From NCBI RefSeq assembly GCF_011759375.1, contig NZ_JAARML010000001.1, forward strand, positions 434,001 to 498,000: a stretch of 64,000 nt of DNA. The letters run 5' to 3'. Source of the DNA: Paraflavitalea devenefica (GTDB lineage Bacteria; Bacteroidota; Bacteroidia; Chitinophagales; Chitinophagaceae). Shown in pieces: positions 46,999 to 59,981 of this stretch. Within the stretch, counting starts at the first letter, position 1, and the number at the start of each line of letters is the position of its first letter. The notes under the pieces are model-generated. The model was not told the origin of the DNA and did no database searches. It was given only the letters and a program-made list of their open reading frames with translations. Position numbers and translations under genes: made by a program.

Positions 46999-48138
46999 AT
47001 GATGAAAACCTTTATTATCCTTTTTGCTGTGTTGCTCTTTACTCCATTTGTATATAGTCAAAATAGCCCTGCTGCCCCACCGGTTGTGATCGGTTACGTG
47101 GGCGGTTTCAGGGGGCTGGTGAATATTTCTTCTATTGACGCCAGGCGGCTTACGCATATTAATTATGCTTTTGTGGATGTGAAAGATAACCGGGCATGGC
47201 TCCATAATGAGGTGACCGATACCACTAATTTCAGGTTACTGAATAGCCTGAAGCAGCAAAACCCTTCCCTGAAGATCCTGATCTCCATCGGGGGCTGGAC
47301 CTGGAGCAAAAATTTCTCCGATGCCGTACTGACTGATACCAGCCGTCGCGCTTTTGCCATTACTTCTGTAGCTATTGTGCGCCAGTATAACCTGGACGGC
47401 GTTGATATTGACTGGGAGTATCCCGGCATGGTTGGTGATGGTAATGTATTCCGACCGGAGGATAAACAAAATTATACACTAATGTTCCAGGCAATCCGGG
47501 AGGAACTGACAAAGCTGCAACAGGAGACCGGACGTTATTATTTGCTAACGACCGCCACCGGCGGCTTTCCCGCCTACCTGGACCATACAGAGATGGGTAA
47601 GGCACAGGAATACCTGGATTATGTGAACCTGATGACGTATGATTACAGTTTTGGCCAAACGGGCCATCATACGAACCTGTTTGCTTCCAAAAATTATGAG
47701 AAGGAAAACTCTGCCCACAAAGCGGTGACCACTTATATGGCGGCTGGTGTGCCGGCGCATAAGCTGGTAGTAGGCCTGGCTTTTTATAGTCGCGGTGGTG
47801 TGGTGGAAAGTACTGCCGACCATGGCCGGAACCAAAAGATTGTTTCCCCTTTCCGGGCAGGGGGTTATACGTATATTAAGGACAGCCTGCTGCAAAAGGA
47901 AGGGTTCCGTTTGTACTGGGACAGGAAGGCCAAAGCACCTTACCTGTTTAATGCGGAGAAGAAACAGTTTGCCTCTTTTGATAATGAACGCTCCGTTAAG
48001 TATAAGTGCCGTTATGTAAAGAAACATAAGCTGGGCGGCGTTATGTTCTGGGAGTATTCATCGGACCCGAAGCTTTATTTGCTGAAGGCGGTTAACCGGT
48101 ACTTGTCTGAACCAACAAAGCCAGAGGCTTTGAAATAG
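46999..48138 (+). CDS. GH18 family chitinase-type glycosidase
   Basis: A 379-residue secreted protein with signal peptide (FIILFAVLLFTPFVYSQ). The GH18 barrel has the catalytic motif DGVDIDWEYP (about residues 132-141) with the SIGGWTWSKNF strand before it, VNLMTYDYSFGQTGHHTNLF after it, and the small alpha/beta insertion. GH18 enzymes act on chitin or related N-acetylglucosamine polymers by substrate-assisted catalysis. The start is one of two adjacent ATGs at 46999 and 47002. It is transcribed divergently from the GH30 pair, so the region may be devoted to fungal-wall or other glycan breakdown. Confidence 0.94.
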   Translation: MMKTFIILFAVLLFTPFVYSQNSPAAPPVVIGYVGGFRGLVNISSIDARRLTHINYAFVDVKDNRAWLHNEVTDTTNFRLLNSLKQQNPSLKILISIGGWTWSKNFSDAVLTDTSRRAFAITSVAIVRQYNLDGVDIDWEYPGMVGDGNVFRPEDKQNYTLMFQAIREELTKLQQETGRYYLLTTATGGFPAYLDHTEMGKAQEYLDYVNLMTYDYSFGQTGHHTNLFASKNYEKENSAHKAVTTYMAAGVPAHKLVVGLAFYSRGGVVESTADHGRNQKIVSPFRAGGYTYIKDSLLQKEGFRLYWDRKAKAPYLFNAEKKQFASFDNERSVKYKCRYVKKHKLGGVMFWEYSSDPKLYLLKAVNRYLSEPTKPEALK

Positions 48139-48140
48139 CC

Positions 48141-48163
48141 GTCACCAGCCAGAGGCTGGCGAC
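48141..48163. other. Hairpin after the GH18 gene
   Basis: GTCACCAGCC (48141-48150) pairs with GGCTGGCGAC (48154-48163) apart from one mismatch; the loop is three bases. There is no T-run, so it may be a processing or weak termination signal. Confidence 0.45.
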
Positions 48164-48205
48164 TGAAGAAATGACAAATGGGTGTTACATTTCACCCTAT
48201 GGGGG

Positions 48206-48826
48206 CTATTTATTAAAGATTAAAGTATTGGCTTTGGTAATCTCGTCATGCGAGATGGTGTGGCCCATGTTGGGATATATTTTTTCAGTGACATCGGCCT
48301 GCATGTCCTTTAAGATGTTGGTGGTAGCATATACCCTTTGTACGGGCACGTGCATGTCGGGATCACTGGTGCCGATGAAAATGGGCGTGCCGGCAAAATC
48401 TCCTTTGTAATGGTCGTTATAGATCTTATCGCCGATCAATCCTCCTGTAAAGGCTACCACGCCGCCATAGCGGGCCGCATTGCGCGCCACAAATTCGAGG
48501 GTAAGACAAGCGCCCTGGGAGAAACCGAGGAAGTAGATGTTTTCTTTAAGAATGCCCTGGGTCACTATATCATTGACGACATCACCCAATATAGATAAGG
48601 CCGATGAAAGCCAGGGTTCATTTTGCTGTATCGGCGTCATGAAGGAATATGGATACCAGGTGTTGCCCGTAGCCTGCGGAGCTACGAGTGCATAGTCTTT
48701 TACATCGAGGTGTTCTGCCAGTGAGAGAATGTCTTCTGCTGACCCGCCCCGGCCATGGACCATGATCAATACTTTTTTGGCTTCAGTCAGTTTCTTTCCG
48801 GCTGTTATGATGTCTTTCTTGTGCAT
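48206..48826 (-). CDS. Alpha/beta-hydrolase, phospholipase/carboxylesterase (MhqD/YpfH-like)
   Basis: A 206-residue serine hydrolase. Residues: oxyanion loop VHGRGGSAEDI, nucleophile elbow GFSQGACL, acid in SDPDMHVP and histidine in NMGHTISH. It resembles small hydrolases encoded near MhqO-type dioxygenases (MhqD) in quinone-stress loci, a comparison supported by its two neighbours. It has no signal peptide and probably acts in the cytoplasm. It is the last gene of a run from yceI (51439) through two dioxygenases, separated by 70 bases from the dioxygenase upstream. Confidence 0.87.
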   Translation of the reverse strand: MHKKDIITAGKKLTEAKKVLIMVHGRGGSAEDILSLAEHLDVKDYALVAPQATGNTWYPYSFMTPIQQNEPWLSSALSILGDVVNDIVTQGILKENIYFLGFSQGACLTLEFVARNAARYGGVVAFTGGLIGDKIYNDHYKGDFAGTPIFIGTSDPDMHVPVQRVYATTNILKDMQADVTEKIYPNMGHTISHDEITKANTLIFNK

Positions 48827-48850
48827 GATTTAGTAAGTTCTTCTTTAACG

Positions 48851-48876
48851 CCCTTCGACAAGCTCAGGGTGACATT
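48851..48876. repeat. 26-bp dispersed direct repeat, copy 1
   Basis: This 26-nt stretch, starting CCCTTCGACAAGCTCA and ending GTGACATT, recurs at 49917-49942 with a single base difference. Both lie in the gaps flanking the first dioxygenase gene. Confidence 0.85.
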
Positions 48877-48896
48877 GCTCAGGGCGACAAAGAGGA

Positions 48897-49850
48897 TTAT
48901 TTGTAGTTGTCCAGGTTGATGGATACCGGTGGCAGGGTTTGTTCGAGGCGGGCCCGGTTTTTCTCGAACTGCGGCGGCAGCTTTAATGCTTCGCCAAGGT
49001 GGTCCACTGTTTCATCAACAGCAAAGCCCGGCCCGGCAGTAGCCACTTCAAAGAGTACGCCGCCTGGCTCCCGAAAGTAGATGGAAGTAAAGTAGTTCCT
49101 GTCTAATACAGGCGTTGGATTCAACATACGCTTCACGATCTTTTCCCTCAGTTGGTCCTGCTCCACTTTACCGGGTGTACTGAACGCGATGTGGTGTACA
49201 GTACCACTGCCACCCAATCCGCGTAAGCTATCCGGAGAGCAAATGATGTCTACATAGTTGCCCGGCGAATCATTGGCTGCAAAGCGGAAGCGGTTTCCTT
49301 TCTCCGCGATTAATACATGGTCCAATTGCTCTGTCAATAAGCCTGCCGTACGTTCATATCCTTCTTCCCATATTTCCACGTTGTAGAATCCTTTGATGGC
49401 GTGTTCGGGCGGCACGGGCCCCTGGCCATGTTGCGGTCTTGTGTCTTTGTTGTTGAACACGAGTTCTAATCCCAGTCCGTCGGTGTCTTCAAAGTAAACG
49501 ACTGTTTCCTTGTCAAAACGCTCTTCCGGCTCTTTGTACGGGATGCGGTATTGTTGGAGGCGGTTTAACCAATAATCCAGTGAAGCAGCGGGAACAGAGA
49601 AAGTAGTGGTATTCAACATGCCCTTGCCATGCCGGCCTCTTACCAATCCCTGGTAGGGGAAGAAGGTAAGGATGCTGCCTGGCTGACCTGTTTGATCGCC
49701 GTAATAGAAGTGGTAGACTTCCGGCGCATCAAAGTTGACTGTTTTCTTGACCATTCTGATACCGAGGACGCCGCTGTAAAATTCAAGGTTCTTCTGTGCA
49801 TCGCCGGCTATGGCAGTTACATGATGAATACCAGTGATTAACTTTCCCAT
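48897..49850 (-). CDS. Ring-cleaving dioxygenase (VOC/MhqO-like)
   Basis: A 317-residue protein starting at ATG 49850; an upstream TTG adds eight unlikely residues. Two vicinal-oxygen-chelate domains are recognisable: the first begins GIHHVTAIAGDAQKNLEFY and has VKKTVNFDAPEVYHFYYGD, the second runs through FYNVEIWEEG and HHIAFSTPG with YFREPGGVLFEV near the end. H17/E-type metal ligands are kept. MhqO-type enzymes are linked to hydroquinone and quinone detoxification. It is in an operon with a 30 percent-level paralogue (estimate by eye) directly upstream at 49942. Confidence 0.9.
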   Translation of the reverse strand: MGKLITGIHHVTAIAGDAQKNLEFYSGVLGIRMVKKTVNFDAPEVYHFYYGDQTGQPGSILTFFPYQGLVRGRHGKGMLNTTTFSVPAASLDYWLNRLQQYRIPYKEPEERFDKETVVYFEDTDGLGLELVFNNKDTRPQHGQGPVPPEHAIKGFYNVEIWEEGYERTAGLLTEQLDHVLIAEKGNRFRFAANDSPGNYVDIICSPDSLRGLGGSGTVHHIAFSTPGKVEQDQLREKIVKRMLNPTPVLDRNYFTSIYFREPGGVLFEVATAGPGFAVDETVDHLGEALKLPPQFEKNRARLEQTLPPVSINLDNYK

Positions 49851-49887
49851 AGTTTCTATTGTTAATGTTGTCAAGCTCCCTTAGACC

Positions 49888-49920
49888 AGGGTGAGCCGCC
49901 CTTGGAGGGCGACCCACCCT
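49888..49920. repeat. Imperfect palindrome, family A copy 2
   Basis: AGGGTGAGCCGCCC (49888-49901) and GGGCGACCCACCCT (49907-49920) with loop TTGGA. The same sequence family is at 10865, 55872 and 56141. Confidence 0.8.
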
Positions 49921-49942
49921 TCGACAAGCTCACGGTGACATT
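49917..49942. repeat. 26-bp dispersed direct repeat, copy 2
   Basis: Same stretch as 48851-48876 with one difference (C for G within CTCA-GGG). It overlaps the right end of the family A palindrome and the last base touches the stop codon of the dioxygenase gene starting at 50877. Confidence 0.8.
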
Positions 49943-50877
49943 TACTGTAATACCGGTAATTGTTTCTCGATGTCTTCCCGCATAGACTCATATTGCGGAG
50001 GCAATTTGAGGTGGGTACCTAATTCCGCCACCGGTTCATCGGCAGCAAAACCAGGATTATCGGACGCTATTTCGAAGAGCACGCCACCGGGTTCGCGGAA
50101 GTACAAAGAGAAGAAGTAGTTACGGTCTATTTTAGGCGTAATGTTGAATCCACGCTTTGCTATTTTTTCCCGGAACTCCATGAGGATGTTGTCATCTGCG
50201 ACGCGGAAGGCCACGTGGTGATTGGTACCACCGGCCACCTGCCCTATTTTTCCAGCGGGATCCTCAATGATGTCTACGATGGCGGCGTTGCTGACCGCAT
50301 CGGTGACAAAGCGGTAACGGTTGCCCTCCTGCTCCAATAGTTTGTAGCCAAATATTTCGGTCAATACCGCTACTGTGCCCTTGATGCTTTTCAGGGTAAG
50401 GGTGATGCTGTGGAATCCTTTGGTAGCAGCCTGTTCTGTAACGGCTGTTGTAGTCCATGCTTTCCTGTTGTCCCCTGCTTTGGGTACAGTAAGGCTGAGT
50501 TGTAAACCATCAGGATCCTGGAAAGGCAGGTATAATTCACCAAATCTTTCCCCTGTTTCGCCCAGTTGTACTTTGTATTGACTGAATCTTTCTTTCCAGA
50601 ATTCCAGGCTTCCTTCCGGTACTGCATAGCCAATTTCTGTGGCCATGCCTGTTCCTGCATAACCCGGAGTTACTCCTTCCCAGGGGAAAAAGGTGAGGAT
50701 GGTACCGGGTGTACCTACCTCGTTACCATAGTAGAAGTGATAGGTACCCGGATCATCAAAGTTGACTGTCTTCTTTACCATTCTTAAACCCAGCACCCGG
50801 GTATAGAAATCGAAGTTACGTTGGGCATTGCCTGCTATGGCAGTAATGTGGTGCAAACCCAATATCCTATTGGTCAT
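49942..50877 (-). CDS. Ring-cleaving dioxygenase (VOC/MhqO-like), paralogue
   Basis: A 311-residue protein of the same two-domain VOC architecture as 48897-49850: LGLHHITAIAGNAQRNFDFY at the N-terminus, TVNFDDPGTYHFYYGN, and in the second half KGFHSITLTL, HHVAFRVADDN and YFREPGGVLFEI. Metal-binding histidine and glutamate positions agree with the paralogue. ATG 50877 is preceded by AAAAGGAG, a fair Shine-Dalgarno site. It follows yceI by 28 bases and is probably in the same operon, so a duplication of dioxygenases within a stress operon is likely. Confidence 0.9.
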   Translation of the reverse strand: MTNRILGLHHITAIAGNAQRNFDFYTRVLGLRMVKKTVNFDDPGTYHFYYGNEVGTPGTILTFFPWEGVTPGYAGTGMATEIGYAVPEGSLEFWKERFSQYKVQLGETGERFGELYLPFQDPDGLQLSLTVPKAGDNRKAWTTTAVTEQAATKGFHSITLTLKSIKGTVAVLTEIFGYKLLEQEGNRYRFVTDAVSNAAIVDIIEDPAGKIGQVAGGTNHHVAFRVADDNILMEFREKIAKRGFNITPKIDRNYFFSLYFREPGGVLFEIASDNPGFAADEPVAELGTHLKLPPQYESMREDIEKQLPVLQ

Positions 50878-50905
50878 AAAAACTCCTTTTGAGCTTTCGG
50901 CTCTT

Positions 50906-51439
50906 TTAAGCTTGTTTGATTAACTGGAACTCACCGGCAAATTTAACTTCATCACTCACTACTATGTTACCGGCTTCTGTTACGGCACCCCAGTTGAGGC
51001 CAAATTCCTTACGATTTAATTTACCAGTGACGGTGAAACCTGCTTTTGTTTGTCCATAGGGGTCAACTGTGATGCCACCAAATTCTACATTGGCAGTTAC
51101 ATTACCGGCAACGCCCCTTAATGTTAAGGCACCCAGCAGCTTACCTTCTTCTTTATTACCTGTATATTTTGTACCTACAAATTTAATCTCATTATGCTCG
51201 GAAGCATTAAAGAAATCGGCTGAGCGGAGGTGGTTATCCCTTTGCTCATTGTTGGTATCTACGGAGTTTACATCGGCTGTAAATTCAATGTGTGATGCAT
51301 TGGTAAAGTCGTCACCTTCTGTTTCCGCTACCAGGTTGAACTTTTTGAAGTAACCGGTTACAGTAGTGATCATAAGGTGTTTTACTTTAAACTGAATTTC
51401 ACTGTGTGCGGGATCCAATACCCATTTTGTCTTTGCCAT
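50906..51439 (-). CDS. YceI-family protein
   Basis: A 177-residue lipocalin-like YceI protein. It has WVLDPAHSEIQFKVKHLMITTVTG at the start, DVNSVDTNNEQRDNHLRSADFF in the middle and KAGFTVTGKLNRKEFGLNWG near the end, all typical. Some YceI proteins bind isoprenoid quinones. This one lacks a signal peptide (MAKTKWV), so it is cytoplasmic. Its promoter region shares the 20-bp activator motif with those of dps and pirin. It heads the likely yceI-dioxygenase-dioxygenase-hydrolase operon. Confidence 0.92.
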   Translation of the reverse strand: MAKTKWVLDPAHSEIQFKVKHLMITTVTGYFKKFNLVAETEGDDFTNASHIEFTADVNSVDTNNEQRDNHLRSADFFNASEHNEIKFVGTKYTGNKEEGKLLGALTLRGVAGNVTANVEFGGITVDPYGQTKAGFTVTGKLNRKEFGLNWGAVTEAGNIVVSDEVKFAGEFQLIKQA

Positions 51440-51490
51440 GTTGCGTTAATTTATTGATTATCAAATTTGTTTATTGTCATATTGACTATA

Positions 51491-51553
51491 CAAAGTTGCA
51501 ACATTAATTAGTCAGGGAGAATAGCTATACAACGGAAAGAGTTGTACATTTTA
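51491..51553 (-). promoter_or_regulatory. yceI promoter with 20-bp activator motif
   Basis: Read on the minus strand, CAACTTTG at 51498-51491 matches TAnnTTTG except for the first base. The motif GGAAAGAGTTGTACATTTTA (plus strand, 51534-51553) is separated from it by exactly 35 nt. The same motif and spacing occur at the dps and pirin promoters. Confidence 0.65.
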
Positions 51554-51633
51554 AGGTTGGAGGTGGAGTTTAATGAGGGATTGGGCTAAAAATGCTGATT
51601 ATCAAGTACTTAGTAGGGTAGACATTAAAATAG

Positions 51634-51686
51634 AAGGCAACAAGGCATAGAAGCAACGAGAAGGTAAAGGCAGCAAGGCACTAAGG
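51634..51686. repeat. 8-bp-period degenerate repeat near a stop codon
   Basis: Units AAGGCAAC, AAGGCATA, GAAGCAAC, GAGAAGGT and similar, period eight with one slip, ending seven bases from the stop of the second yceI gene (51693, minus strand). Related to 10197-10236. Confidence 0.7.
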
Positions 51687-51692
51687 AATGCC

Positions 51693-52235
51693 TCAGGGTA
51701 GTCTGAGCAGTTGGACGTCGCAATGGAGCGTTACTTCATCGGACAGCAATAGCCCGTGCTTATCTATGAACTGGTTCCAGGTGATGTTGAAGTCCTTACG
51801 GTTGAAGGTGGCATCGAGCATGAAACCTGCCTTTGTATTTCCCATGGCGTCGAGCGAGGTGCCTACCTGTGTAGCGTGCCAGGTTATTTCCTGCACCGTG
51901 TCTTTGATAGACAAGATCCCGGTGGCCTGTATCTGGTTGCCCTGCACGGTAACCGAACCTGACTTGTAGGTGATGACTGGGTATTTGCGAACGTCAAAGA
52001 AATCGGGTGACCGAAGGTGTGCGTCCCGCTCTTCATTACCGGTATATACGGAGTTGGTATAGATGGTGAGCTGTACCTGGCTGCCGTTGAAGTTTTCCTC
52101 CGGCGTTATGACTGATCCTTCAAACTGGGTGAACCAGCCGGACACGGGCGTGAGTAACAGGTATTTTGTATCGAACCGTATCCGCGTGTGAACGGGATCG
52201 ATGACCCAAACTGCCTCCTTTTTAGTTTCTTCCAT
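51693..52235 (-). CDS. YceI-family protein, paralogue
   Basis: A 180-residue second YceI protein: VWVIDPVHTRIRFDTKYLLL at the start, YTNSVYTGNEERDAHLRSPDFF in the middle, and KAGFMLDATFNRKDFNITWN near the end align well with the first. It also lacks a signal peptide. It sits between dps (gap 101 bases) and the first yceI (253 bases) on the same strand. I see no clear copy of the activator motif before it, so it may be read from the dps promoter. Confidence 0.9.
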   Translation of the reverse strand: MEETKKEAVWVIDPVHTRIRFDTKYLLLTPVSGWFTQFEGSVITPEENFNGSQVQLTIYTNSVYTGNEERDAHLRSPDFFDVRKYPVITYKSGSVTVQGNQIQATGILSIKDTVQEITWHATQVGTSLDAMGNTKAGFMLDATFNRKDFNITWNQFIDKHGLLLSDEVTLHCDVQLLRLP

Positions 52236-52336
52236 AAACCGGAACCTTTAGTGCTTAGGATAAATTACCCCTATGTTACTGCCCTGCCTGATCTGTGAAT
52301 ATAGTATGGCGAATCACTGCGGCCAAATAAATATGT

Positions 52337-52810
52337 TTATTTTAAGTGTGCCCGCAGCATCCAGGCCATTTTTTCATGGGTTTCCATCAGGCCGGTGATG
52401 AAGTCGCTGCTACCGAGGTCCTGCAGGTCATTGGCAAAACGGTTGATGTTTTCCCGCAGGAAGACGATGATGCTTTCATGATCGGCCAGCAATTCTTTTA
52501 TGAAGCCGGTACTGTCATTCGCTTCCCTTGATAATTCGGTCAGGTGAGTAAGCTGCAGGAATTGCTTCAGCGTTGCGGGCGCATAATGGCCTAATGTCCG
52601 GATGCGTTCCGCCACGTTGTCCATGGTTTCATCCAGCATTTCGTACTGGCTTTCGAAGAAGGTGTGCTTGGCGTAGAAGTCCGGGCCTTCCACATTCCAG
52701 TGCGCATTGCGTGTTTTGGTATAGAGTACAAATTCATCTGCCAGGACTTTGGTGAGCGTGTGCGCTACTTCCGTCAGGTTGTTTTGACTGATGCCGATCG
52801 CGGGTGTCAT
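52337..52810 (-). CDS. dps: Dps-family DNA-protection ferritin
   Basis: A 157-residue Dps protein. The intersubunit ferroxidase site is visible in TRNAHWNVEGPDFYAKHTFFE (H in NAHWN, D and E further on), with helix LDETMDNVAERIRTLGHYAP. Dps dodecamers oxidise ferrous iron with hydrogen peroxide and coat DNA. Start ATG 52810. The promoter is one of the best in the window: -7 TAGCTTTG at 52849-52842, TTG at 52872-52870, and the 20-bp motif upstream. It opens a stress-gene block together with pirin. Confidence 0.95.
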   Translation of the reverse strand: MTPAIGISQNNLTEVAHTLTKVLADEFVLYTKTRNAHWNVEGPDFYAKHTFFESQYEMLDETMDNVAERIRTLGHYAPATLKQFLQLTHLTELSREANDSTGFIKELLADHESIIVFLRENINRFANDLQDLGSSDFITGLMETHEKMAWMLRAHLK

Positions 52811-52841
52811 ATATAAGTATTGTTGTTGTTGATTAATGACA

Positions 52842-52904
52842 CAAAGCTATGCGCGGGCGGCCTGGCAATCAATTGACAAATGAAGGGAAGAGATGTATAT
52901 TTTA
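52842..52904 (-). promoter_or_regulatory. dps promoter with 20-bp activator motif
   Basis: -7 box TAGCTTTG (52849-52842), -33 TTG (52872-52870) with a 20-nt spacer, and the motif GGGAAGAGATGTATATTTTA on the plus strand at 52885-52904. The motif is 17 of 20 identical to that of yceI and lies 35 nt from the -7 box, as at yceI and pirin. TTGACAAA precedes it at 52873-52880, as before pirin. Confidence 0.7.
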
Positions 52905-52955
52905 TCGAGGCTCCTGATTAGCCGGAAAGGCGGGAAGGCGGAAAACACCAATAAC

Positions 52956-53813
52956 TTAGTAATCCAGTTCGCCGAAGCGGCCGTTTTTATAGTCTTCGAT
53001 GGCCTGTTCTATTTCTTCCGGGGTATTCATGACATAGTTGTCTTTGGCGGCTACCGGTTCATCGAGGGGTTCGGCAGAGAGGAATAAGACCTGTGCATCT
53101 TCGGTAGCCTTGACCGTGAATTCATTTCCCTCTTTATTGAACACAACGAGGTTATGCAGCTCAATGGTGTCCTGCTCATTGATCACCACGCTTCCTTTTA
53201 TTATGTAGAGCAGGGTCCAGTAGCCGGGTGTAGCGGGAAATAATACCTGCCGTCCGGCATTTATTTCACCTACCACTGATATGATGGGGGTAAAGTTCTG
53301 TATGGGACCGGTCTGACCATCATAATCACCACTGGCCAACCGGAGGTGTACACCTTCCTGTTGTAGCACCTGCGGCAGTTGTTCGCGGGTGGCTGCCTGG
53401 TAAAAGGGCTTGTCCCATTTGTTGGCCTTCGGTGCATTGATCCAAAGCTGGATGAGCTCCTGCACGCCTCCCTGCTGCTGCATTTCCTTTGTAGGCCCTT
53501 CACTGTGCAGGATACCCTTACCTGCAAACATCCACTGCACACCGCCTGCTTTTATTGTTTCATCATTCCCGGCATTGTCGCGGTGAAAACCTTCTCCCTG
53601 CAATAGGAAGGTATAGGGGGAGAAACCCCGGTGCGGATGTGGATGGATGCGCACCTGCTGCCCTGCCTCCACTACAGTAGGGCCTGCATGGTGCAATACA
53701 ATGAAGGGATTGGCAAAACGGAAATCTTTATGCGGCAGCGCCTGGCGTACGGTTTCTTCTTCTGTGATCTTCTTTTCACGTCCATAGAGGATGTGCTCAA
53801 TCTTCTTTTTCAT
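52956..53813 (-). CDS. Pirin-family protein
   Basis: A 285-residue bicupin. The N-terminal metal site is HPHPHRGFS (about residues 57-65), with E and H further along in GKGILHSEGP. Pirins bind iron and some have quercetinase or redox-sensor activity; the function in this group is unproven. Start is ATG 53813. The promoter contains the same activator motif as dps and yceI, and an alpha/beta-hydrolase gene starts 212 bases away on the other strand. The protein has no signal peptide. Confidence 0.92.
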   Translation of the reverse strand: MKKKIEHILYGREKKITEEETVRQALPHKDFRFANPFIVLHHAGPTVVEAGQQVRIHPHPHRGFSPYTFLLQGEGFHRDNAGNDETIKAGGVQWMFAGKGILHSEGPTKEMQQQGGVQELIQLWINAPKANKWDKPFYQAATREQLPQVLQQEGVHLRLASGDYDGQTGPIQNFTPIISVVGEINAGRQVLFPATPGYWTLLYIIKGSVVINEQDTIELHNLVVFNKEGNEFTVKATEDAQVLFLSAEPLDEPVAAKDNYVMNTPEEIEQAIEDYKNGRFGELDY

Positions 53814-53847
53814 ATATTTTAAGGTAAGCTTGCTTTGAATGAATGAC

Positions 53848-53910
53848 CAAATTTACAATAAGCCTCCTTAAACCAGCTTGACAAAACAGGGGAAAGCGTT
53901 GTACATATTA
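53848..53910 (-). promoter_or_regulatory. pirin promoter with 20-bp activator motif
   Basis: -7 box TAAATTTG (53855-53848), no convincing -33 element, and motif GGAAAGCGTTGTACATATTA (plus strand, 53891-53910), 18 of 20 identical to yceI. The gap to the -7 box is exactly 35 nt. TTGACAAA precedes it at 53878-53885. Confidence 0.7.
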
Positions 53911-54025
53911 CTGTAATTGCGGTTTACAACAGGATACCAGCATTTGTACAACAAAAGACTGAAAGGATACATTGCCTGTACGCTGCCGGCAGGCGAAATT
54001 TGTGGTGCATTAAATAATACCAATC

Positions 54026-54805
54026 ATGAAACAGCAATTGTTATTGAAGAAAACCGCCGGTTTGCTTTTAGCTACGATGTTCCTGTTAGTAAGCATTACC
54101 GGTTCAGCACAAAATCCGGCACCTGTGAAGAATATTGTATTGGTGCATGGCGCTTTTGCTGATGGATCGGGATGGGAAGGCGTGTATAAGCTATTAAGCG
54201 CCCGTGGTTATAATGTGGTGATTGTTCAAAACCCACTCTTATCACTGGAAGAGGATGTGGAATCTGTTAACCGGGTATTGGACAAGCTGGAAGGTCAGGC
54301 CATACTGGTGGGTCATTCCTGGGGCGGTGCTGTTATTACACAGGCAGGCGTATCGCCTAAGGTAGCCGGACTGGTATATGTGGCCGCTTTTCAACCGGAT
54401 GCCGGAGAAACAGTGCTGCAATGGGCAACTTCCCTGCCACCGGCTCCTGAAAGTGGTATCCTTCCTCCTGATGCCAAAGGGTTTATTTATTTTGATCCTG
54501 CCAAGTATCATGCAGGTTTTGCAGCAGACCTGAGTAAAGAGAAGGCCGCTTTTATGTCGGCTTCACAAGGCGCCTGGTCGGCCAAAGGTCCCACTACTCC
54601 CCTTACACAAGTTGCCTGGAAAACGAAACCATCCTGGGCAGTGGTAGCCACCGAAGACAAGGCGATCGTACCCGATATTCAACGCACTATGTATAAACGT
54701 TCCGGGTCTATTGTTACGGAGATAAAAGGGAGTCATGTGGTGTTTATATCCAAACCTCAGGCCGTGGCTGATGTAATTGAGGCAGCGGCGAAGGGGAAGA
54801 AATAA
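54026..54805 (+). CDS. Exported alpha/beta-hydrolase
   Basis: A 259-residue hydrolase with a signal peptide (GLLLATMFLLVSITGSAQ). After the leader it has IVLVHGAFADGSGWEGVY, nucleophile elbow VGHSWGGAV, an acid near VATEDKAIVP and a histidine in IKGSHVVFI. This is the style of the AB-hydrolase family near EstC/hydroxynitrile-lyase-like proteins, substrate unknown. It starts at ATG 54026 and shares an intergenic region with pirin that carries the activator motif (115 bases upstream of this ATG). Degenerate repeats follow its stop codon. Confidence 0.87.
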   Translation: MKQQLLLKKTAGLLLATMFLLVSITGSAQNPAPVKNIVLVHGAFADGSGWEGVYKLLSARGYNVVIVQNPLLSLEEDVESVNRVLDKLEGQAILVGHSWGGAVITQAGVSPKVAGLVYVAAFQPDAGETVLQWATSLPPAPESGILPPDAKGFIYFDPAKYHAGFAADLSKEKAAFMSASQGAWSAKGPTTPLTQVAWKTKPSWAVVATEDKAIVPDIQRTMYKRSGSIVTEIKGSHVVFISKPQAVADVIEAAAKGKK

Positions 54806-54808
54806 GGT

Positions 54809-54870
54809 ATTAGCGGTTAGCAATTGGTTGTTGTATTAGCATTGGCAGTTAATAATTAGCGTTGGCAGTT
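54809..54870. repeat. Degenerate heptamer and direct 16-bp repeat
   Basis: ATTAGCG, GTTAGCA (54809-54822) are two heptamer units just after the stop at 54805. Then ATTAGCATTGGCAGTT (54835-54850) and ATTAGCGTTGGCAGTT (54855-54870) are direct copies differing at one base. Confidence 0.65.
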
Positions 54871-54932
54871 CGGGAGTAAGAAAGGCTACAGATGATTTAC
54901 CTGTGGCCTTTTCTTTTTGCTGCCGACAGCCA

Positions 54933-55814
54933 TTATGCATTACCGAATTGCCAGGAAGTCTGTTTTTTAAAGTCGGTAAAGCTTTGCCCGGAAACGTTCT
55001 TAAAGAATTTACTGAAGTGCGCTATGTCATCAAAGCCCAGGTGGTAAGCAATTTCTTTCATGCTTGAATCTGAATAGGTGGCATGGCGTTTTGCTTCCAA
55101 CACGATACGCTGCTGAATGTGGTAGCTGGCCGGAAAGCCGGATACTTTTTTTACGATCTCATTGAGGTAGTTGGGCGTCACTGCCAGGTGCTCCGCATAT
55201 TCGGTCACTTTTTTATGGGTACTGTATTTTTTGTCAACAATGGAGAAGAATTTTTTTACCAGGTCGGTATTCCTGGTTTGCGCCATCGGTTTTCCGATGT
55301 TATTTGACTGACGGGCCAGGTAGATGAGGAATATTTTGAAGAGGCCCATTAAGAGCTCGGACCGTAAGAGGAAGAAGTTCTCAAATTCTTTTATCATTTT
55401 CTGTACGATTTCCCCTACTTCGTTTTTTGTTTCCTCACTGAGCCTGGTCACATTCAGTTGTGTAAAGGCATCTGACTGATGGCCAGCCATGAAGAGGAAG
55501 TCGGCATTAAAAGCAATGATATACCCGCCGGCCTGTTTATCCGCGTTTAACTGATGTACCTGACCGGGTGCTGCATAACAGATGGTATTGCCTGTTACTT
55601 CGTGCTTTTCCAGGTCTACCAACCAGGTACCGATGCCCTGCGTTAGCCAGGTTATTTCATGGTAACTGTGCCGGTGTGGTTGGTGGTTGTGCCGGCGGTT
55701 GTGCTCCATCCATTCAATGGTATGGATCTCAAACGGCATGCTGTTGGGCTGAAAAGGCATACGCTCTGTAAGGTTTGTAACCGGCTCTGCCGGACGTTGT
55801 TTGGCTTGTGGCAT
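54933..55814 (-). CDS. AraC-family transcriptional regulator
   Basis: A 293-residue regulator starting at ATG 55814 (an upstream TTG adds ten residues). The N-terminal cupin domain has HNHQPHRHSYHEITWLTQGIG and ICYAAPGQVHQL; the C-terminal double helix-turn-helix domain has YAEHLAVTPNYLNEIVKKV and MKEIAYHLGFDDIAHFSKFF. AraC proteins of this type bind two adjacent major grooves, about 17-20 bp, and often activate neighbouring genes. It is the nearest regulator to the promoters with the shared 20-bp motif, so it is the best candidate for their activator, but that is inference. Confidence 0.92.
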   Translation of the reverse strand: MPQAKQRPAEPVTNLTERMPFQPNSMPFEIHTIEWMEHNRRHNHQPHRHSYHEITWLTQGIGTWLVDLEKHEVTGNTICYAAPGQVHQLNADKQAGGYIIAFNADFLFMAGHQSDAFTQLNVTRLSEETKNEVGEIVQKMIKEFENFFLLRSELLMGLFKIFLIYLARQSNNIGKPMAQTRNTDLVKKFFSIVDKKYSTHKKVTEYAEHLAVTPNYLNEIVKKVSGFPASYHIQQRIVLEAKRHATYSDSSMKEIAYHLGFDDIAHFSKFFKNVSGQSFTDFKKQTSWQFGNA

Positions 55815-55871
55815 AATGGTTAATTTTGGTATGATCTCCGGCAAGCGATCGTATTATTTGATCAATGTTAA

Positions 55872-55903
55872 AAGGTGAGCCGGCTTTGGCAGGCGACCCG
55901 CCC
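55872..55903. repeat. Imperfect palindrome, family A copy 3
   Basis: AAGGTGAGCCGGC and AGGCGACCCGCCC face each other across a short loop; two positions differ from the other copies. The 367-nt gap 55815-56181 holds this copy, a long hairpin at 56035-56082 and copy 4, and no convincing gene. Confidence 0.65.
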
Positions 55904-56034
55904 TATAACAAGTCTATTTATGTGCCACAAACCGGTGATGTTGTCATGAATGGGCAGGTTGATTACAGCCTTATGAATAGCAGGCTATTGTGCTGCATTA
56001 TTTTATTGTATGCGATAGAAGCAGAGATGAGTAA

Positions 56035-56082
56035 CTCCATTTTTTTCGGAGTTTTTTGGGAGAGGCTCCGAAATAAATGGAG
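56035..56082. other. Long near-perfect hairpin, possible structured RNA element
   Basis: CTCCATTTTTTTCGGAG (56035-56051) and CTCCGAAATAAATGGAG (56066-56082) are inverted copies in 16 of 17 positions with a 14-nt loop. It is in a gene-free stretch between the AraC gene and the NtrC-type regulator. Confidence 0.6.
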
Positions 56083-56140
56083 GTGCCTGAACCTGGATTC
56101 GGGGGATTTGAGAGATTGATTGGATTATTGTATAGCGACG

Positions 56141-56173
56141 ATGGTGAGCCGCCTTTGGAAGGCGACCCACCAT
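56141..56173. repeat. Imperfect palindrome, family A copy 4
   Basis: ATGGTGAGCCGCC (56141-56153) and GGCGACCCACCAT (56161-56173) around TTTGGAA. It begins eight bases past the regulator stop at 56182 (minus strand) and could serve as its terminator. Confidence 0.8.
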
Positions 56174-56181
56174 CTAACAGA

Positions 56182-57630
56182 TCAGAGGTCTTCTTTTTTG
56201 ATGCCGAGTTTATGCATTTTAGATTCGAGGGTGGTGGGCTTGAGGTTGAGGAGTTGGGCGGCGCCGCCTTCGCCCCTGATGCGGCCATTGGTTTTGCGGA
56301 GTATGGCCATGATGTATTCCCGTTCGGTGTCTTCCTGTATTTTCCGGATATCGGTGAGTGATTTGGCTGTCGTGTGGTGTTGCGGCGTGGTTACAGTGGC
56401 CGTATTAATAAGTGCGCCGTTACTGAGCGGGCGTTTTAATTCCAGAGGTGATCCATTGTCACAGAGTATGACAGATTGCTCTATTACATTTTCCAGTTCC
56501 CGGATGTTACCCGGCCAGTGCCAGGCTTCCAGTTCGGCCATCATTTTGGGGGCAATGCCCTGAAAAGACCTGTTGTTGCGGTTACTGCAGGCTACTGCAA
56601 AATGATTCGCCAGCAGGCTGATGTCTTCCTTACGTTCACGCAGGGGAGGCAACACTACCGGAAATATGTTGAGGCGGTAGTAGAGATCCAGGCGGAAACG
56701 GCCTTCCGCTACTTCTTTTTCAAGGTTACGGTTGGTAGCAGCCACGATACGCACATTGACCTTAAAAGGCGCTTTCCCCCCTATACGTTCTATTTCTTTT
56801 TCCTGGAGCACCCGCAATAGTTTGACCTGCAGTTCCAGGGGCATTTCGCCAATTTCATCCAGGAAGATGGTGCCATCAGCAGCCTGCTCAAATTTTCCGA
56901 TCCTCCTGTCGGTAGCACCGGTAAAAGCCCCTTTCTCGTGTCCGAATAGTTCAGATTCTATGAGTGAAGCAGGCAATGCAGCACAGTTGACTTTGATGAA
57001 AGGTTTTGTCCTGCGGTGAGAAAGGTGATGGATGCAATGGGCAATACGCTCTTTACCGGTGCCGCTTTCACCCATGATGAGCACAGAGGTGTCGAACGTT
57101 GCTACCTGTGCGATGTGATCCAATACGGATAATAATTGTTGGCTGTTGCCAATGATGCCTTCAAACCCGGCATTGGCTCTTCCCTGTTCTGCGGTACTAT
57201 TTTTTTGCTGAGCGGTTAGTTGTTCCTGCAGCACTTCCCGGCGTTGTCTCCATTCAAGGTTGTGCTGATGACGATAGCGTGCTATATCGAGTGTGATGAG
57301 CACATCTTTTGCCCGGAAAGGTTTCACCAGGAAGCCATAAGGCTCTGTGAGCTTTGCCGCTTCCAGTACACGTTGGTTGGAATTGGCAGAGAGGTAAACG
57401 AAAGCAATGTTTTGTTCCTTTAATTGCCAGGCCAGGTCAATACCTGTCCCGTTGCCCCTGAGATAGATGTCGAGCAATACAAGTTGTGGTTTGTGCTGAC
57501 TGATGAGTTTCCGCGCTTCTTCCACCGAAGCAGCAATGCCACATACCCGGTATCCGGCTTTTTCCAGCGTGAGCCGGAGATCATTGGCCACGATGAATTC
57601 ATCTTCTACTATGAGGATCTGTTCGGTCAT
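56182..57630 (-). CDS. NtrC-family sigma-54-dependent response regulator
   Basis: A 482-residue regulator starting at ATG 57630. Receiver domain (residues 3-115): E9-D10, phosphoacceptor D54 in LLDIYL, K in VKPFRA. The AAA+ domain has Walker A GESGTGKE, the sigma-54 contact loop GHEKGAFTGATD, Walker B GTIFLDEIGEM and the arginine region RLNIFPVVLPPLRER. A Fis-type HTH ends the protein (GGAAQLLNLKPTTLESKM). It depends on sigma-54 to activate promoters that are not identified here. It is the downstream partner of the TPR kinase, separated by 62 bases that contain a strong hairpin. Confidence 0.95.
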   Translation of the reverse strand: MTEQILIVEDEFIVANDLRLTLEKAGYRVCGIAASVEEARKLISQHKPQLVLLDIYLRGNGTGIDLAWQLKEQNIAFVYLSANSNQRVLEAAKLTEPYGFLVKPFRAKDVLITLDIARYRHQHNLEWRQRREVLQEQLTAQQKNSTAEQGRANAGFEGIIGNSQQLLSVLDHIAQVATFDTSVLIMGESGTGKERIAHCIHHLSHRRTKPFIKVNCAALPASLIESELFGHEKGAFTGATDRRIGKFEQAADGTIFLDEIGEMPLELQVKLLRVLQEKEIERIGGKAPFKVNVRIVAATNRNLEKEVAEGRFRLDLYYRLNIFPVVLPPLRERKEDISLLANHFAVACSNRNNRSFQGIAPKMMAELEAWHWPGNIRELENVIEQSVILCDNGSPLELKRPLSNGALINTATVTTPQHHTTAKSLTDIRKIQEDTEREYIMAILRKTNGRIRGEGGAAQLLNLKPTTLESKMHKLGIKKEDL

Positions 57631-57642
57631 GTGTTTCTGATT

Positions 57643-57672
57643 CCGCAGAGTCCCCTTCGGGAGACTCTGCGG
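57643..57672. other. Strong hairpin between kinase and regulator genes
   Basis: CCGCAGAGTC (57643-57652) pairs perfectly with GACTCTGCGG (57663-57672), with more pairs in the loop. It lies 12 bases before the regulator ATG and has no T-run, so it could influence translation or RNA stability rather than terminate. Confidence 0.65.
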
Positions 57673-57692
57673 GGAAATTAAATTTGCTTTGT

Positions 57693-59981
57693 TCAATTTT
57701 CATAGACGGCCATTCGCCCGTGCGGGAATCTGATCATGATAGAAACTCCTTTATCACTTTGTATGATGAAGACGCCATTCAACTGTTTGGTAAGCCCCTG
57801 CATCAGGTTCATGCCCAGTGAACGGACAGCGGCTGTATCAAAGCCCGCCGGCAATCCCCGGCCATTGTCTGCAATGACAAGCAGTACATGGCTATCCTGG
57901 TCCTGTTTCATTAATATGTTTATGGTACCCTCGCTGTTATCCGGAAAAGCATATTTGAAGGCATTGGTGATGGATTCATTGAGTATGAGGCCCACGGGCA
58001 CAGCCTGTGCAACATCCATGGCTATTTTTTCTACCTGCAAACTGAACCCGATCTTATGGCTGAGGTTGAAGTTATCGCTCAGGTATTCCACCAATTCGCG
58101 GATGTAAGCCTGCATGTCAATAGCCGATTCCGTTTCAGACTGGTATAAACGCTGGTGAATGAGTGACATGGCGCGCATGCGGTGCTGGCTATCGCGGATG
58201 GCCATGAGAGCGGCATCATTGTCGAGATAGGCAGATTGAGTATTGAGCAGGCTGATGACGATCTGCAGGTTATTTTTTACCCGGTGATGAATTTCCTTAA
58301 GCAGCCATTCTTTTTCTTCGAGCAACCTGTCTTTTTCCGTTACGAGTTGTTGCAGGGATTGATTTTGCCTGTTGATCTCTTCCTGCTTGGCTTCCAGCCG
58401 CCGGTTGCTGCGCTGCCTGATGAGATAACGGTTGTACAATAACCCTACTATTATCAGCAGCAGCACGACAGCGCCAATGGTAAGGTTGCCGGTAAGTTTT
58501 GCCTGCTTTAACCGGCTTTGCTGTAGCTGATTCTCCCGTTCGAGGGCACTGATGTTCTGTTCTTTTTTGCCGGTTTCATAGGCTACCTGCAGTTCCTCTA
58601 TCTGGCGGCTTTTGCTTTCATTGAAAAGTGAATCATTTAGTGTTTTATAGCTGTTGAAATGGTCTATTGCAGCAAGGTAACTGCCCGTGGCAGAATCCAC
58701 TTTAAAAAGAAAAAAATGAAGGTCCCTGATCCTGGATGTTAATGCTATACCCGGCGGCATGGCCATTGCTTTTTCGAGGTACCGGCGGGCATGGTCATAG
58801 CGATGCCTGTTGAGGTAGAACTCGCCCATGGTAAAGTATACTTCAAAGGTGAAGACGTTACCCTGGTCCATTTTTTCTTCCCAGGCTATCATTTCCAGGT
58901 AATGTTGTTCTGCCAGGGCATATTGTTTTAAGGCAGTGTAACAGTCGCCCAATGAGGTGGCCACTGCCTGTTTATCTGCCAGGCGGACCGGAGGGAATTT
59001 ATCCCGGGTGCTTAACACTAACTTCAACGCCTCCTTTTCTTTCTTTTGCCGTATTAATGCACGCACCTGGTGTCCGTTGAATCTGTGCATGGGACCGTGT
59101 AAAGCCAGTTCAAGGTTTTGCTGAAAGAATATGACTGCCCTTCCGTACCATTCGGCACATTTATCAAAATGCCCTAATTCCCTGTACACACTTCCCAGTC
59201 TGCCATAGAAATAGCCACCCGACACACTATCGGCAGTAGCCTGCATGCTCCTGACCGTTTCCAGCGCATAAAATAGTGCTTTCTCGTAGTTGCCTTTCGC
59301 CGTGGCAACAGCCGAGAGCAGGTCATAAGTATAATGCAAATTGGCATACCCGATATCCTGGTACATTTTCAAAACACGGAGAAACCCTTGCTCTGCACTG
59401 TCCAGCTTTCCCTGGTGCATGTAAACATCTGCCACATCTTTCAAGGCTGCAATTTCTTTTTCTCTGTTGCCCGTTTGCCGGTAAAGCTCACGCGCCAGTT
59501 TAAAGTAACGCAGGTGTTCTGCAAAAGCACTGTCCATATTGGACGCTAGTTTTTGATCAGGAATGGTATTGGCCAGCCTGGTCCAGACAGCAGCTTCCTG
59601 TTCTTTATCGCCGGTTTTTTGAAAATGGTCGATCACCTGCAAGAAGCACGACCGGCCCTGGTCATAATCCCGCTGTTCAAAGTACATTTCACCCAACATG
59701 AATAAAGACTTGTGTTGCCAGGCAACAGCCCGGAGCTGATCGCTGAGTTGTTTTGCTTTTGTTGCATAAGCGATGCCGCTGTCGGACACGTTGGTATGTA
59801 CGCCTGGTTTAACATCATAGTACCAGGCTATTTCCAGCAGTATTTTAATGCGATTGGTATCGGGCAGGCTGCGCTGTAACCGGTTCATCAGCGTAGCATA
59901 CGAATTGCCGGACGCTTCCTGGCCCTTAGCAGCCCGGGCTACTATTACCAATACAGATGCGATGAGCCATACCCTGAGCAT
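57693..59981 (-). CDS. TPR sensor histidine kinase (HisKA_2 type)
   Basis: A 762-residue kinase with a signal peptide (LIASVLVIVARAAKGQ). Tetratricopeptide repeats fill about residues 30-430 (LGEMYFEQRDYDQGRSCFLQV, LGSVYRELGHFDKCAEWYGRA, MGEFYLNRHRYDHARRYLEKA), all in the periplasm. A single membrane helix is at about 496-515 (IGAVVLLLIIVGLLYNRYLI), followed by a coiled coil, the HisKA_2 dimerisation domain with EIHHRVKNNLQ (H565/H566) and an ATPase domain (ILNESITNAFKYAF, IADNGRGLP). Its stop is 62 bases before the NtrC-type regulator, its likely target. The stimulus is unknown. Confidence 0.93.
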   Translation of the reverse strand: MLRVWLIASVLVIVARAAKGQEASGNSYATLMNRLQRSLPDTNRIKILLEIAWYYDVKPGVHTNVSDSGIAYATKAKQLSDQLRAVAWQHKSLFMLGEMYFEQRDYDQGRSCFLQVIDHFQKTGDKEQEAAVWTRLANTIPDQKLASNMDSAFAEHLRYFKLARELYRQTGNREKEIAALKDVADVYMHQGKLDSAEQGFLRVLKMYQDIGYANLHYTYDLLSAVATAKGNYEKALFYALETVRSMQATADSVSGGYFYGRLGSVYRELGHFDKCAEWYGRAVIFFQQNLELALHGPMHRFNGHQVRALIRQKKEKEALKLVLSTRDKFPPVRLADKQAVATSLGDCYTALKQYALAEQHYLEMIAWEEKMDQGNVFTFEVYFTMGEFYLNRHRYDHARRYLEKAMAMPPGIALTSRIRDLHFFLFKVDSATGSYLAAIDHFNSYKTLNDSLFNESKSRQIEELQVAYETGKKEQNISALERENQLQQSRLKQAKLTGNLTIGAVVLLLIIVGLLYNRYLIRQRSNRRLEAKQEEINRQNQSLQQLVTEKDRLLEEKEWLLKEIHHRVKNNLQIVISLLNTQSAYLDNDAALMAIRDSQHRMRAMSLIHQRLYQSETESAIDMQAYIRELVEYLSDNFNLSHKIGFSLQVEKIAMDVAQAVPVGLILNESITNAFKYAFPDNSEGTINILMKQDQDSHVLLVIADNGRGLPAGFDTAAVRSLGMNLMQGLTKQLNGVFIIQSDKGVSIMIRFPHGRMAVYEN

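Follow-up and report, generated by a model that had tools for sequence, protein, structure and literature searches.

Examination of a 64,000-nucleotide stretch of the Paraflavitalea devenefica genome (contig NZ_JAARML010000001.1, positions 434,001 to 498,000; hereafter the window) reveals a conserved element upstream of three minus-strand genes, encoding a YceI-like protein, Dps and pirin, which stands at a fixed distance from the -7 box of each promoter. That the three promoters share a motif and a spacing was the core of the original prediction made on this DNA, and the observation is both true and predictive. Judging from sequence comparisons, we are fairly confident that the element serves as operator for a transcriptional activator of the AraC family, which would govern a detoxification regulon. 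The site very probably marks a real regulon of this kind, which most likely comprises a yceI-mhqO-mhqO-mhqD operon, a dps-yceI pair, pirin, ppk and alpha/beta hydrolases, with an isochorismatase in relatives, and is most likely directed at quinones or aromatic electrophiles. The sites and boxes in the window are the following.

51491..51498, minus strand: -7 box CAACTTTG of the yceI-A promoter
51518..51553, minus strand: 36-bp conserved site 5' of yceI-A (20-bp motif at 51534-51553)
52842..52849, minus strand: -7 box TAGCTTTG of the dps promoter
52869..52904, minus strand: 36-bp conserved site 5' of dps (20-bp motif at 52885-52904), including TTTGTCAATTG
53848..53855, minus strand: -7 box TAAATTTG of the pirin promoter
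53875..53910, minus strand: conserved site 5' of pirin (20-bp motif at 53891-53910), with TTTGTCAA offset by 1 bp relative to dps

All coordinates and pairwise identities given for the three 20-bp copies were reproduced. Read on the minus strand, on which all three share one orientation, they are TAAAATGTACAACTCTTTCC (yceI), TAAAATATACATCTCTTCCC (dps) and TAATATGTACAACGCTTTCC (pirin); the dps and pirin copies agree with the yceI copy in 17/20 and 18/20 positions and with each other in 15/20, and each copy lies exactly 35 nt from its box. The boxes of dps, pirin and ppk fit TAnnTTTG exactly, a sequence given as the Bacteroidota primary-sigma -7 box in an excerpt of PMC7366714. At yceI-A the box CAACTTTG is one position off and is the same in 5/5 genus members compared (our genome included), all of which also keep the yceI-A site; the dps site was compared among 4 genus members, and pirin sites are also present in two congeners (loci L055 and L125). 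The sequence TTGACAAA, said to precede the box at dps and pirin, is indeed found there (52873-52880 and 53878-53885), with a 1-bp offset at pirin. At dps and ppk a -33-like TTG stands 20 nt from the -7 box, within the conserved element; yceI carries TTC there and pirin has no such triplet. The pirin site lies in an intergenic region held in common with a divergent alpha/beta hydrolase gene (54026-54805, plus strand), whose product looks by eye as if it began with a signal peptide, and an effect on both genes is possible.

With up to 3 mismatches allowed, the consensus of the three copies has 3 matches in the window against a mean of 0.08 in 100 shuffles, a comparison that is circular, the consensus having been derived from the same three sites. 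For this reason we take the whole-genome scan, which had been proposed together with a scan of relatives, as the non-circular test. At the same tolerance the consensus has 29 matches in the 8.73-Mb genome, 4 of them perfect. A -7-like box stands exactly 35 nt from each of these four, including the one that lies beyond the window. None of the 25 imperfect matches has such a box at 35 (one has AAGGTTTG at 34), and they are therefore ruled out as further members. The fourth perfect copy (window-equivalent 65861-65880, 1.9 kb past the window end) is situated between ppk and the gene for a second AraC-family regulator, AraC2, and has TAGCTTTG exactly 35 nt off, in a promoter upstream of ppk; all four perfect copies fall within 14.3 kb. 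A composite pattern of motif, 35 nt and box, again with up to 3 mismatches, is found at 5 places in the genome, 4 of them perfect, against 2 for a reversed control. The fifth place (contig 10:76348-76410) precedes an alpha/beta hydrolase gene and has 3 mismatches to this first composite; it has 0 mismatches to a broadened composite, but that pattern was written after the site had been seen, and we accept the site because orthologous genes in relatives are also preceded by sites. A candidate sixth site (contig 3:777055, score 20.5) lies before a gene for a HAD-type hydrolase, a label given by eye. Taken over the genome and its relatives, the scan finds the motif to be predictive, its fixed spacing to recur and the site to be kept in relatives.

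The shared site is real, but it extends beyond the 20 bp first described and overlaps the -33 region. An alignment of 16 composite sites displays conservation to position 35, with a second core, WTTRTCWATTG, and the whole block spans about 36 bp (TRWWWTRTACAWCnCTWYCCnnnnWTTRTCWATTG) and ends 20 nt before the -7 box. Its 3' part (TTTGTCAATTG) overlies the -33 region and includes TTGACAAA, the complement of part of the second core, the last TTG or TTC of which falls 20 nt from the -7 box, at the expected -33 position. Among orthologous promoters (four sets of 5, 4, 8 and 8) identity within the block is 0.81-0.94, as against a near-chance 0.27-0.36 in the 60 bp upstream; in the 19 nt that separate the block from the box it is 46-69%. 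An Rfam scan of 48000-56500 returned nothing at the gathering threshold.

Spacing in relatives was read from loci picked by their AraC protein alone (11 named and 30 further ones, partly the same regions), using a 36-bp matrix that is blind to the -7 box and counting distinct sites with a score of at least 20. TTTG stands at 35 nt in 30/35 such sites, at 34 in one and at 36 in two, and is found at none of these distances in two; the matrix had been trained on 4 of the 35, and excluding them 26/31 are at 35, with many of the loci closely related (eight named ones are from Niastella or Longitalea). Pirin orthologues in two congeners have a spacing of 34, and dps in one congener has 36. The identical spacing originally noted is accordingly exact in the window but not absolute, 34 to 36 nt being tolerated in relatives. 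Three genomes with a close AraC and no matrix match (G121, G195 and G132) bear a diverged site with TTTG again at 35, found post hoc by inspecting TRTACA matches. In two congeners (L043:1602 and L088:2424) the ppk site is preceded at about 250 bp by a second, weaker one whose TTTG is 36 nt away, which suggests tandem sites or an extra small gene.

The regulator singled out in the original prediction is one of a pair.

54933..55814, minus strand: AraC1, AraC-family regulator, a genus-limited paralogue of AraC2
65919-66806 (window-equivalent, outside the window): AraC2, AraC-family regulator

The two proteins are 52% identical, and AraC2 is the only close paralogue of AraC1 in the genome, the next AraC protein being at 29%. 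Both match the C-terminal AraC-type helix-turn-helix (HTH) model HTH_18 (60.5 bits for AraC1 and 65.1 for AraC2; cut-off 33.6) and the N-terminal AraC-type cupin domain PF02311 (37.4 and 32.2 bits; cut-off 21.1); an N-terminal cupin ligand domain is frequent, albeit not universal, among AraC/XylS regulators. A PDB search with the pair gave weak HTH-level matches only. They agree in TPNYLNE and GFDD(I/V)AHFSKFFKN, and their recognition helices are nearly alike. In a tree of 38 AraC proteins, the clade of 5 that holds AraC1 (support 100/99) is confined to the genus and AraC2 groups firmly with its genus orthologues (98/99), whereas a larger AraC2 group with Niastella, Longitalea, Terrimonas and others, as well as some rows without a site, is weak (91/77). 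At the named Niastella and Longitalea loci the AraC gene adjoins the sites for yceI-A and yceI-B, and its product is 67-70% identical to AraC2 versus 52-55% to AraC1; no AraC1-like second match occurs in the g94 genomes scanned, these Niastella and Longitalea among them. In G002 (93% complete) solely the AraC1 type was found, along with six sites. The protein at 54933-55814 is thus of the AraC family as proposed, but the type that accompanies the sites across genera is AraC2. Given that the AraC1 clade is genus-only and the AraC2 type spans genera, either could act here, the likeliest arrangement in this genus being a duplicated regulator with a common operator.

Autoregulation of AraC1 was rejected, the six window matches scoring at least 8 being the three sites (47.0, 46.3 and 30.1) and three elsewhere (at most 11.4), with three shuffled windows peaking at 12.0. 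Near AraC1 the window also encodes a response regulator with a sigma54-activator-like region (56182-57696, minus strand) and, adjacent to it, a histidine-kinase-like protein (57693-59981, minus strand), both recognized by eye; relatives of the former are found near AraC1 in congeners. Directly upstream of the AraC2-type gene, a DtxR-type iron-dependent regulator (FeoA domain) is encoded at L042:9244-9831 and in five other Niastella loci, a neighbour that is a possible link to iron in those species.

The distribution of site and regulator across genomes suggests that the operator accompanies close AraC orthologues. A composite made from the four own sites only has 15 matches in 6/59 genomes, our own included (reversed control 1), and its one match beyond the genus, in G010, puts the site at most about 60 bp downstream of an AraC homologue. 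The broadened composite has 45 matches in 17/294 family genomes (reversed control 0), and an AraC model at E<=1e-50 is found in 37/294, among them 17/17 motif genomes; the site is within 5 kb of the AraC gene in 15/17, the exceptions being G082 (a weak match) and G087 (two good ones). At the genus level, 7/7 motif genera are among the 20 AraC genera of 101 (hypergeometric 4.5e-6). As a target-gene control, mhqO was sought at E<=1e-90 and found in 67/294 genomes, where the motif is present in 15/26 with AraC versus 0/41 without it (Fisher 2e-8). AraC reaches E<=1e-100 in 21 genomes; pattern or matrix places a spaced site near the gene in 16 of these, and 3 more have a diverged site found post hoc.

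Several points weigh against assigning the element to an AraC activator. The genomes are related and the counts not independent, which leaves the probabilities only indicative; loci that bear AraC served to tune the broadened pattern; and AraC scoring took in at most 8 candidates per genome, so that its absence is less sure than its presence. In G146 and G198, two of the genomes at E<=1e-100, no spaced site is seen close to AraC, and the two good sites of G087 are not near any of its AraC matches. Where AraC scores between 1e-50 and 1e-100, the motif occurs in only 2/16 genomes (weakly in G082, and in G087), which suggests a tie between the operator and close orthologues. Similar recognition helices are also seen in several homologues without a site, so the helices are no proof of a match; the matrix scan of the window places no site 5' of AraC1; and the 21-bp direct repeat does not stand out (shift 21 gives 0.35, shift 20 gives 0.34 and shift 25 gives 0.33), no direct-repeat or inverted-repeat shift being prominent in the block.

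A different regulator, for instance one of DtxR or oxidative-stress type, might bind the element, with the AraC genes as mere neighbours. A DtxR-type gene is indeed found just upstream of AraC2 in 6/17 compared loci, all from Niastella (one recognized via Pfam), Dps is a classic iron and oxidative target, and the good sites of G087 stand apart from its AraC matches. Against this, AraC is the sole regulator family common to 17/17 compared loci, most of which were chosen through AraC, and selection by motif first also leads to AraC (17/17 motif genomes, 15/17 within 5 kb), while the response regulator is common within the genus only (5 loci, two of them the same region). On this comparison, which covers the genes at the 17 loci, we consider another regulator improbable.

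We propose instead that a cupin-HTH AraC protein, ancestrally of the AraC2 type and here possibly AraC1 too, would bind the block upon encountering an inducer and aid the primary sigma factor at promoters with a weak -33 element, in a class II manner. Taking the -7 box as about -12 to -5, the block would occupy about -67 to -33, and the rigid distance could provide the geometry for touching sigma or polymerase; class II AraC-type activators contact sigma from about the -67 to -33 position. Counting distance to the box, the block ends 20 nt before it and the spacing is 35 in 30/35 box-blind sites. The activator-type site initially suggested is in keeping with this predicted geometry, the fixed distance and the weak -33 element. 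The block also overlies -33, where a bound protein could block polymerase, and AraC might thus act on the same operator as a repressor or dual regulator; activation, however, typically goes with rigid spacing ahead of a weak -33 element, and most AraC-family proteins activate, so that we hold this to be about as doubtful as the involvement of another regulator. That block and box together form the promoter of an alternative, extracytoplasmic function (ECF) sigma factor, with no activator site, would agree with the fixed spacing, the common orientation and the inclusion of the -33 position in the block; yet the conserved stretch extends from 20 nt to as far as 55 nt before the -7 box, beyond the reach of sigma, and TAnnTTTG boxes belong to the primary-sigma type, which makes this very unlikely. 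That the motif has merely been duplicated or is mobile and plays no part in regulation, as four copies inside 14.3 kb of one genome might imply, is scarcely credible, for the 35-nt spacers are alike in just 8 to 15 of 35 positions pairwise, and orthologues and genera keep block and box while the upstream flank is near chance.

The predicted targets of the AraC activator in the window are as follows.

48206..48826, minus strand: mhqD-like phospholipase/carboxylesterase (PF02230), at the end of the putative operon
48897..49850, minus strand: second mhqO-like dioxygenase (glyoxalase superfamily), clustering with mhqO 1; ATG checked
49942..50877, minus strand: mhqO-like ring-cleaving dioxygenase 1 (PDB 3oaj, named mhqO, E 1.7e-83)
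50906..51439, minus strand: yceI-A (PF04264), first gene of the putative operon
51693..52235, minus strand: yceI-B, here probably transcribed together with the preceding dps; in relatives it has a site to itself
52337..52810, minus strand: dps (Pfam Ferritin; NCBIfam Dps models below their cut-offs)
52956..53813, minus strand: pirin

The genes for YceI-A, the two MhqO-like proteins and the MhqD-like protein stand in series on one strand. YceI-A matches polyisoprenoid-binding proteins (3.4e-28), and the MhqO-like protein also matches a 2,6-dichloro-p-hydroquinone 1,2-dioxygenase (4huz, 5.2e-56); the second MhqO-like protein was scanned minus its first residue. Relatives of the mhqD-like gene are found in 14/17 compared loci. 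In the fetched loci, 58 distinct sites score at least 20, our own window sites left out, and in 46/58 the downstream gene matches a reference set: yceI-A (13), yceI-B (11), isochorismatase (5), two alpha/beta hydrolases (4 and 3), ppk (3), dps (3), mhqO (2) and pirin (2). Three of the 46 are self-matches, the references having come from sites, and the 12 others are unmatched, some lying in cut loci. The isochorismatase has own-genome homologues at just 42% and 35%. The local regulon originally envisaged would cover the window genes, but predicted membership also takes in ppk, located beyond the window at 12 kb from the pirin site, and, on a different contig, an alpha/beta hydrolase; congeners have sites at additional distant genes. 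In relatives, away from AraC loci, sites at L118 and L084 precede the genes of a porin-like outer-membrane protein and an NADH-dehydrogenase-like protein (by eye), which are possible targets. According to an excerpt of PMC6798810, the quinone-responsive regulators of Firmicutes have genes of the MhqO and MhqD types among their targets. The presence of such targets, together with the likeness of both AraC proteins to HpaA described below, favours quinones or aromatic electrophiles as the signal. Of the two stresses first proposed, electrophile detoxification is thus retained, but the iron part rests mainly on dps.

For a stress response in a bacterial family whose regulons are little mapped, these predictions name a regulator family, an operator and genes that can be tested. 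They also connect YceI and pirin, two poorly understood proteins, with detoxification of the mhq type, and offer a natural promoter set for studying how activators work with the unusual Bacteroidota primary sigma factor. The regulon is apparently undescribed, but of a known type; judged from titles and abstract starts, none of the open-licence papers listed appears to describe the site or the regulon. The best NCBIfam match of both AraC proteins, extending along most of each, is HpaA of 4-hydroxyphenylacetate catabolism (TIGR02297; E 3.9e-33 and 1.2e-29), but its cut-off of 274.65 is far above the 114.9 and 103.5 bits of AraC1 and AraC2, which are accordingly rejected as HpaA equivalogs; nor did any hpa genes turn up in the predicted target set. 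The class II activators of the AraC/XylS family, such as RhaS and MarA, are alike in combining a cupin-plus-HTH protein with an asymmetric site beside or over -35/-33 at a fixed distance; their sites comprise a direct repeat of half-sites of about 21 bp, whereas here shift 21 scarcely exceeds shifts 20 and 25. The predicted AraC regulators of Bacteroides rhamnose genes compare likewise, and the targets of both groups differ from those here. Among families present in at least 4/17 loci, the only regulators recognized, mostly by eye, were AraC (17), DtxR-type (6) and response-regulator (5) proteins, MarR genes elsewhere not having been searched for. A fuller picture, which we offer tentatively as one possibility, is that Chitinophagaceae run an mhq-type electrophile and quinone defence through a dedicated cupin-AraC activator rather than a MarR repressor, with an aromatic or quinone ligand in the cupin, and that one rigid module couples ring cleavage, isoprenoid-binding YceI, Dps, pirin and polyphosphate synthesis, the regulator having been duplicated in one genus with the operator kept. 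A parallel in content is offered by the MhqR, QsrR and YodB quinone regulons of Bacillus and Staphylococcus, which (PMC6798810) share the mhqO-like dioxygenase and mhqD-like phospholipase/carboxylesterase targets; there the regulators are MarR-type repressors, whereas here an AraC activator is predicted and yceI, dps, pirin and ppk are added to the targets.

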